64,000 nt of DNA from Pseudomonadota bacterium. Lineage in GTDB: Bacteria; Pseudomonadota; Alphaproteobacteria; Rhizobiales; Xanthobacteraceae. The stretch covers positions 1-64,000 of the forward strand of contig QEVP01000007.1 in assembly GCA_003576765.1 (NCBI GenBank), in the 5' to 3' direction. Below are positions 7,636 through 10,031 of this stretch, piece after piece. A program made the translations under genes and the position numbers. Numbering within the stretch: the stretch's first letter is position 1; the number at the start of each line of letters is the position of its first letter. The notes under the pieces are model-generated. The model was not told where the DNA came from. It did not search any database and saw only the letters and a program-made list of their open reading frames with translations.

Positions 7636-8988
7636 TTAGCTTTCCGTTGCCGAAGTTCCGACGATTTGAGCCAACCGGGCGTAGCCGTCGGGGAGCACCG
7701 TGGCCTCGTCCTTGCCCTGGCGGAGAAAATCCTCCAGCGGCTCGTGGAGCCGGATCGCCTCGTCCACCTCGGGGCTGGAGCCTGCGCGGTAGGCGCCGAG
7801 CCGGATCAGTTCCTCCATGTCGGAATAGGTCGCCATCACCTGCCGGGCGCGCATTACGGTCGGCAGATAGGCCGGATCGGCGGATTTCGGCATGGTCCGC
7901 GACACCGATTTCAGCACGTTGATCGCCGGGTAGCGGCCACGCTCGGCGATGGCGCGCTCCATCACGATGTGACCGTCGAGGATGCCGCGCACCGCGTCGG
8001 CGACCGGCTCGTTGTGGTCGTCGCCATCGACCAGCACCGTGAAGATGCCGGTGATGGTGCCCTCGCCGATGCCCGGGCCGGCGCGCTCCAGCAGCTTCGG
8101 CAGTTCGGTGAACACGGTGGGGGTATAGCCCTTGGCGGTCGGTGGCTCGCCGGCTGACAGCCCGATCTCGCGCTGCGCCATGGCGAAGCGCGTCACCGAA
8201 TCCATCAGCACCAGCACGTCGCGCGCCGCGTCGCGGAAGTATTCGGCGATCGCCATGGTGAGATAGGCGGCCTGGCGGCGCATCAGGGCCGGTTCGTCCG
8301 AGGTCGCCACTACAACGACGGAGCGGGCCAGCCCCTCCTCGCCGAGGTCGTCCTGCAAAAACTCCTGCACCTCGCGGCCGCGCTCGCCGACCAGGCCGAT
8401 CACCGAGACGGCCGCCTCGACGTTGCGCGCCAGCATCGACAGCAGCACCGACTTGCCGACGCCGGAGCCGGCGAAGATGCCCATGCGCTGGCCGCGGCAG
8501 CAGGTCAGGAAGGTGTTGAGCGCACGCACGCCGAGGTCGAGCGGCGCGCCGACCCGCCTGCGGGCGTGGGCCGGCGGGGGCGGGTTGCGGAACGGCATCG
8601 GCACGGGACCCTGCGGCAGCGGTCCCTTGCCGTCGATCGGCTCGCCCATGGCGTTGAGCACGCGGCCGAGCCAGGCCGGCGAGGGCCGCACCTTGGAAGC
8701 GGCGTTGACGATGGTCGCGCGGCAGCCGCGGCGCACCCCGTCGAGCGTGCCGAACGGCATCGCCACCGCGTTGTCGCCGGAAAAGCCGGTCACCTCGCAG
8801 GGGATCGACGCGCCGCGCCCGGTCTCGATCACCACGCGGGCGCCGACCGACATCGCGTGCAGGGGGCCAGCGATCTCCACCATCAGGCCGCGGACCCCGG
8901 CGACGCGGCCATAAGTATTGACGTCGTCGATGTCGCCGATCTGCTCGGCGAGCGTCCTCACCGTGAAAGCCTTACGTTTCGCGACCAT
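7636..8988 (-). CDS. fliI: Flagellum-specific ATPase FliI
   Basis: This 450-residue ATPase energises flagellar protein export and is related to F1-beta. The Walker A motif [11 protein letters not shown] lies at 170-180 and Walker B in [12 protein letters not shown]. The type III secretion signature [18 protein letters not shown] and the arginine-finger region follow. Length is typical. The gene is transcribed away from ctrA, from a shared 341-base intergenic region that carries a CtrA-like box 13 bases before this start. It is followed by fliJ. Confidence 0.96.
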
Positions 8989-9000
8989 GAGGCGATCGCC

Positions 9001-9015
9001 TTAACCTGGTGTTTA
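9001..9015 (-). promoter_or_regulatory. CtrA-like box upstream of fliI
   Basis: TTAACCTGGTGTTTA fits TTAA-N7-TTAA with one mismatch and lies 13 bases upstream of the fliI start codon. CtrA control of fliI is known in Caulobacter; use of this copy is inferred. Confidence 0.45.
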
Positions 9016-9151
9016 CCCGCGTCGTTAATCATTGCGTCACTGTCTCGGCGTTCGCGCACTCTTTCCCTCGATCTCGAGGGGAACGTTTGCATGAAATCCG
9101 CTGAGACCCGCTCTTAATTTGGAACCTGAACGACGGCGGACCGGAAAAGTT

Positions 9152-9253
9152 GATTCACTCCAGCACTTTAGGTCGATTCGACGAAAATTGCACCGGGCCT
9201 GCTTGCGGGGACGAATCAGTTTTTGTTAACCATATGTCGTCAGGATCCGAATC
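9152..9253. promoter_or_regulatory. Cluster of four GANTC (CcrM) methylation sites before ctrA
   Basis: GATTC occurs at 9152-9156 and 9175-9179, and GAATC at 9213-9217 and 9249-9253. Base composition predicts fewer than one such site in 102 bases. GANTC is the target of the cell-cycle methylase CcrM, and GANTC sites affect ctrA promoters in Caulobacter and relatives. Confidence 0.6.
9226..9233 (+). promoter_or_regulatory. CtrA half-site before ctrA
   Basis: TTAACCAT, the well-conserved half of the CtrA recognition sequence, lies about 97 bases upstream of the ctrA start and between two GANTC sites. This suggests autoregulation. Confidence 0.45.
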
Positions 9254-9329: not shown

Positions 9330-10031
9330 ATGCGCGTATTGCTGATAGAAGATGACAGCGCGACTGCGCAGTCGATCGAGCTCATGCTCAAATCCGAGAG
9401 TTTCAACGTCTACACGACGGATCTCGGCGAAGAGGGCATCGATCTCGGCAAGCTCTACGATTACGATATCATCCTGCTCGACCTCAACCTGCCCGACATG
9501 TCGGGCTACGAGGTGTTGAAGTCGCTGCGGCTGTCCAAGGTCAAGACGCCGATCCTGATCCTGTCCGGCCTCGCCGGCATCGAGGACAAGGTCAAGGGCC
9601 TTGGCGTCGGCGCCGACGACTACATGACAAAGCCCTTTCACAAGGACGAGCTGGTCGCCCGCATCCATGCCATCGTGCGCCGCTCCAAGGGCCATGCGCA
9701 GTCGGTGATCCAGACCGGCGATCTGATCGTCAACCTCGACACCAAGACCGTCGAGGTCGCCGGCCAGCGCGTGCATCTGACCGGCAAGGAATACCAGATG
9801 CTGGAGCTGCTTTCGCTCCGCAAGGGCACGACGCTGACCAAGGAGATGTTCCTCAACCATCTCTATGGCGGCATGGACGAGCCCGAACTGAAGATCATCG
9901 ACGTGTTCATCTGCAAGCTGCGCAAGAAGCTCGCCAACGCCTCCGAAGGCCGCAACTTCATCGAGACGGTGTGGGGCCGCGGCTATGTGCTGCGCGAGCC
10001 CAACGAGGACGAGGCGCGCATCCCCGCTTAA
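9330..10031 (+). CDS. ctrA: Cell-cycle response regulator CtrA
   Basis: This 233-residue OmpR-type regulator has an N-terminal receiver (residues 1-115; acidic pocket E8-D9, phosphoacceptor D51 in LLDLNLP, K in TKPFHK) and a C-terminal winged helix ending in [13 protein letters not shown]. It is very close to the alphaproteobacterial master regulator that controls replication, division and flagellar genes. CtrA is phosphorylated through CckA and ChpT, and chpT lies 6 kb downstream in this window. The C-terminus ends in PA, whereas the proteolysed Caulobacter CtrA ends in AA. The gene is monocistronic, followed by a bidirectional terminator. Confidence 0.97.

Follow-up and report, generated by a model that had tools for sequence, protein, structure and literature searches.

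The closest described counterpart of the region studied here is P1 of the Caulobacter ctrA gene, in which a GANTC site lies at -29 or -28 and a CtrA half-site, TTAA, at -14; Caulobacter promoters with GANTC between -35 and -10 are active at 40-60 min (PMC4287350). Full methylation of the DNA extends the GcrA footprint to more than 40 nt in Caulobacter, and the GcrA proteins of S. meliloti and B. abortus bound a Caulobacter ctrA probe better when it was methylated (PMC3667746). The extended motif of GcrA-activated Caulobacter promoters, as quoted in PMC8725594 and PMC7987155, is YGAKTCK, and between closely related genera the GcrA regulon has been rewired (PMC7987155). In S. meliloti, a distal ctrA start is located at -291, with CtrA bound upstream of that start (PMC3616915), and CtrA acts weakly on its own two promoters (PMC4433202). 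Methylation has also been shown to matter at the Agrobacterium tumefaciens gcrA promoter, which has six GANTC sites in 250 bp (PMC11514494). Published counts of GANTC upstream of ctrA, broken down by order, reach five or six in Sphingomonadales and Caulobacterales (PMC8116508); in an earlier survey, such counts proved uninformative (PMC2877005). Among the papers searched, we found no report of positional conservation of such sites, of a P1 core across Hyphomicrobiales or of a three-site array.

The window analyzed here is a stretch of 64,000 nucleotides from a member of the Xanthobacteraceae, and all positions refer to it. It encodes a 233-aa CtrA (9330..10031, + strand), which scored 421.4 bits against a cut-off of 350 for the NCBIfam CtrA equivalog NF045991, and a divergent neighbor, FliI (7636..8988, - strand), which scored 654 bits against a cut-off of 587 for TIGR03498 FliI_clade3. 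Four GANTC sites are present between these genes, GATTC at 9152..9156 and 9175..9179 and GAATC at 9213..9217 and 9249..9253 (all + strand), with starts exactly as given in a sequence-only reading of this DNA. The expectation in that reading of fewer than one such site is borne out by the avoidance of GANTC in the window, which contains 95 sites where dinucleotide shuffles predict 294. Over the final 200 bp before ctrA, by comparison, family members have a mean of 3.06 sites, with 0.63 expected from dinucleotide resampling. The cluster of four sites in 102 bp is the only one in the window; the probability of finding one anywhere in 64 kb is about 0.04 at the mean rate of the window but about 0.9, that is, common, at three times this rate, a value assumed for AT-richer intergenic DNA. 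Similarly spaced triples occur at about nine places in the 2.44-Mb genome, compared with one for a control pattern. Clustering statistics alone, being only marginal, were rejected as proof: GANTC density by itself is mildly unusual, and the strong evidence is positional conservation. Elsewhere in this genome, the densest GANTC cluster encountered lies at 14321-14470 of contig C6 (G000; L163-L165), where several sites, among them an inverted repeat, GAGTCTGATTCAAC...GTTGAATCAGACTC, fall within about 150 bp. More sites than in the window were observed within 200 bp upstream of ctrA in some relatives, with seven in L153 (genus g32) and six in L083 (Xanthobacter).

We aligned the window with the ctrA upstream regions of 69 other genomes of the same family (n = 70), sequences that are related, so that the figures are counts and not independent trials. 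The sequence-only reading had made conservation of the site positions in close relatives its test, and three of the four sites passed it: GANTC is found in register with 9175 in 63, with 9213 in 61 and with 9249 in 69 of the 70 sequences, whereas in register with 9152 it is restricted to the window itself. The spacing is 37-38 bp between 9175 and 9213 (38 bp in the window) and 35-38 bp between 9213 and 9249 (36 bp in the window), and none of seven control pentamers, likewise palindromic and of equal composition (GTNAC, CANTG etc.), showed a comparably kept column upstream of ctrA in the family. Site 9249 reads GAATC in 66 sequences, GAGTC in two and GACTC in one, and its counterpart is also present at +35/+36 from the core site in Kaistia and Roseibium, reading GAGTC in the latter. 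Thus, its N base changes without breaking GANTC, as would be predicted for selection on the methylation target. The N base of 9175 and 9213 is nearly invariant, a constraint that methylation alone does not explain; other conserved bases are CA after 9213 and C before both 9175 and 9249.

The core GANTC, 9213, is absent from nine of the 70 family sequences and from several Rhizobium/Agrobacterium species, indicating that it is not indispensable. Sites 9175 and 9249 are retained together in six of the family sequences without it (pattern 0101). Judging from the alignment, selection has maintained both flanking sites in this family, and since they are retained in coreless sequences they probably serve a function of their own. 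In L032, L031 and L154 (genus g19) and in L058, L061 and L064 (Agrobacterium/Rhizobium), the core GANTC has been lost naturally (reading, e.g., GAAAC or CAATT) although the -35 and the CtrA half-site are kept.

From its distribution, site 9152 appears to be a product of recent turnover outside the conserved design. The window has also lost a site pair: at 9085..9098 (+ strand), it contains the remains of an apparently ancestral GANTC-N4-GANTC pair, about -128/-119 from the core site, which is kept in 51 of the 70 family sequences and is also found outside the family in Rhizobium, Brucella, Cohaesibacter, Mesorhizobium and others. In relatives, the pair lies about -245/-236 from ctrA (e.g. L012, L033, L066 and L080) and is common to much of Hyphomicrobiales; within the family, a conserved CTCTTAATGTGG was observed downstream of it. 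The nearest relatives of the window by CtrA sequence (L009 and L010) have kept half of the pair and gained an extra site beside 9249 (GATTCGAATC). The pair may possibly represent a second methylation-dependent element.

Site 9213 is located inside the spacer of a conserved frame, CTTGC(9202)-N19-TTAACCAT(9226), of which the -35 and -10 assignments are themselves predictions. The full core, CTTGC(9202)-N6-GAATCA-N7-TTAACCAT(9226), corresponds to the pattern CTTG-N7-GANTC-N8-TTAAC(CAT) and begins 128 bp upstream of ctrA. Specifically, CTTGC (9202..9206, + strand) is the predicted -35 of a P1-like promoter, and TTAACCAT (9226..9233, + strand) is, by sequence match, a predicted CtrA half-site over the predicted -10 region. 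Visual inspection of the TTAACCAT block revealed no -10 hexamer resembling TATAAT; the predicted start, 9240 (+ strand), therefore rests on the analogy with Caulobacter P1, being extrapolated from its TTAA at -14. With a start near 9240, the four sites would lie at about -88, -65, -27 and +9.

The spacing CTTG-N20-TTAA is present in 65 of 70 family upstream regions and in 34 of 79 other alphaproteobacterial ctrA upstream regions, with no neighboring CTTG/TTAA spacing near this level in the same sequences. When 199 whole genomes of the order were scanned for CTTG-N7-GANTC-N8-TTAAC, 73 contained it, nearly always once, and in 70 of these 73, belonging to 15 families, the core lies about 95-180 bp before ctrA (the exceptions being G529, G571 and G628); in the genome studied here, it matches solely at ctrA. 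In a class-wide scan of 241 genomes, the exact core matched in five, about the same as a control pattern, so that this precise arrangement is not shared across the class. In Caulobacter sp. AP07 (L095), the sequence is CTTGCACCCGATTCGCAAATCAGATTAACCAT, with the same CTTGC-N19-TTAACCAT frame but with GANTC 2 bp further upstream, and the CTTGC-N19-TTAAC frame also occurs in a Phenylobacterium.

Compared with ctrA P1 of Caulobacter crescentus, the window thus has the same gene, the same frame (as judged from Caulobacter sp. AP07), a GANTC between -35 and -10, a CtrA half-site over the -10, and both GcrA and CcrM, but its GANTC, in the form GAATCA, is 2 bp closer to the predicted start and has a conserved GANTC on either side, at -38 and +36 relative to the core site. 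The CTTGC-GAATCA-TTAACC core is shared with S. fredii and other Rhizobiaceae, but neither the +36 nor the -38 site is present in the Rhizobiaceae examined, most of which retain the upstream GANTC pair that is absent from the window. The A. tumefaciens gcrA promoter is likewise a GANTC-rich promoter of a cell cycle regulator, but of a different gene, and methylation there is repressive, even in E. coli without GcrA (PMC11514494).

The upstream region also resembles that of Sinorhizobium meliloti, with its P1 and P2, in a predicted two-promoter arrangement. A TTAACC-N5-TTTACC box (TTAA-N7-TTTA; 9001..9017, + strand), likely to be the CtrA box of a distal ctrA promoter, is largely conserved in the family alignment and fits the CtrA-bound distal start of S. 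meliloti, so that, by this analogy, ctrA probably has two promoters here as well. A second CtrA-like box, TTAATCATTG, was observed at 9025-9034 and is also largely conserved in the family. The two boxes, both near the fliI start, may drive the distal ctrA promoter, affect fliI, or both.

The proteins expected to write and read GANTC methylation are both encoded in the genome. CcrM is represented by one 376-aa N6/N4 methylase, which carries a RAMA domain and can be aligned over almost its entire length with Caulobacter CcrM (6pbd, E=5e-160), and GcrA, present in one copy, aligns over 160 residues with Caulobacter GcrA (7ye1, E=9e-35), the alignment covering the DNA-binding domain of 5yiu. Both scored below the NCBIfam equivalog cut-offs, which are centered on Caulobacter, yet their alignments to the Caulobacter proteins are near full length. 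In a relative, B. diazoefficiens, 99.8% of GANTC sites are methylated (PMC4840208). Together with the P1-like core around 9213, the presence of these genes supports the connection drawn in the sequence-only reading to the methylation-timed ctrA promoter of Caulobacter. The YGAKTCK motif is matched at 9175 on the + strand in all 63 family copies and at 9249 on the - strand in 67 of 69; at 9213, the - strand of the window matches it, as do 38 of the 61 copies, and site 9152 does not match it. By comparison with Caulobacter promoters, 9213 would be the only one of the four sites to occupy a position at which GcrA is known to act. The GcrA footprint of more than 40 nt in Caulobacter is similar to the site spacing in the window, a likeness that is only suggestive.

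Based on these data, we propose, with reasonable though not high confidence, that the region contains a proximal ctrA promoter of the P1 type, which GcrA would read and CtrA would shut, surrounded by an array of three GANTC sites specific to the family. Counting against this proposal are the near-invariance of the N base at 9213 and 9175, the natural losses of the core GANTC, the weak action of CtrA on its own promoters and the lack of GANTC enrichment at cell cycle-regulated promoters (PMC8725594) in S. meliloti, the rewiring of GcrA regulons and the missing -10 hexamer. RNA polymerase-sigma70 would use CTTGC (9202) as the -35 and start near 9240, GcrA would activate from CcrM-methylated GANTC at 9213 in the spacer, and the promoter would be closed again once CtrA occupied TTAACCAT (9226). 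Passage of the fork would leave the sites hemimethylated until CcrM restored them late in the cycle, thereby tying ctrA transcription to replication. In ten complete relatives, the distance between ctrA and gidB, which served as a proxy for the origin, is about 12-27% of the chromosome, or about a quarter to half of the replichore, in agreement with the published 'midway' position in Rhizobiales (PMC8116508); at such a location, the sites should stay hemimethylated for some time once the fork has passed, provided that CcrM is confined to the late cycle in this organism as elsewhere. The flanking sites at -38 and +36 from the core site would add further GcrA/CcrM-dependent input, through extra docking or a methylation-sensitive start region, and 9152 would be a recent, dispensable addition. 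A more elaborate version, which we put forward only tentatively, is that the three conserved sites, with about 3.5 helical turns between neighbors, act together as a multi-site GcrA array, in which the methylation state of the whole promoter, from upstream of the -35 to just past the start, is integrated; if so, activation would be cooperative and switch-like with fork passage, unlike that of the single-site Caulobacter P1.

The conservation data bear on several other explanations. The words GAATCAG and CGATTCG might be sites of another factor, or parts of a strong sigma70 promoter, with GANTC incidental and its methylation without effect. This would account for the conservation of the N base and of some flanking bases and would agree with the finding that cell cycle-regulated promoters of S. 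meliloti are not enriched in GANTC (PMC8725594). We nevertheless consider it rather unlikely, since the changes at 9249, in Roseibium as in the family, preserve GANTC, the core GANTC is within 2 bp of its Caulobacter P1 position though the rest of the spacer differs, and GANTC is strongly avoided elsewhere in the window. Another explanation is that the flanking sites form a protected, hypomethylated patch, in which CtrA or MucR on the promoter keeps CcrM away from GANTC; the array would then report the occupancy of the regulator and not the passage of the fork. In Caulobacter and S. meliloti, GANTC sites are protected by MucR, CtrA boxes placed over three GANTCs in a synthetic promoter lowered methylation (PMC5172544), and in the window the predicted CtrA half-site lies between GANTC sites; against this, nearly all GANTC is methylated in B. 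diazoefficiens and no MucR site was identified in the ctrA upstream region of the window, making such shielding improbable.

The intergenic region is common to ctrA and fliI in the window, and fliI adjoins ctrA in 56 of 109 loci examined, raising the question of whether the sites serve the flagellar gene (start 8988) instead. They are 164-265 bp from fliI, however, and both the core and its distance to ctrA are kept where fliI was not found beside ctrA (Sinorhizobium, Brucella, Kaistia and Caulobacter sp. AP07), so that we give this explanation very little weight. Equally little is left for a chance cluster in AT-rich intergenic DNA, although four sites in 102 bp would be common in 64 kb at three times the mean rate. 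Three sites with nearly fixed spacing in most of the 70 family sequences, unlike the seven control pentamers, refute a chance origin of 9175, 9213 and 9249; for 9152, which is private to the window, the chance explanation stands.

A P1-type ctrA promoter is a known kind of element, of which the family-specific site array is a variant. The 70 genomes of 15 families with the core before ctrA make a sequence-level case that the replication-timed ctrA promoter of Caulobacter is common to much of Hyphomicrobiales, an order including the rhizobia and Brucella, in which control of ctrA transcription is poorly understood. With the exact bases to mutate now defined, and with relatives in which single sites have been lost naturally, the hemimethylation model becomes directly testable outside Caulobacter.
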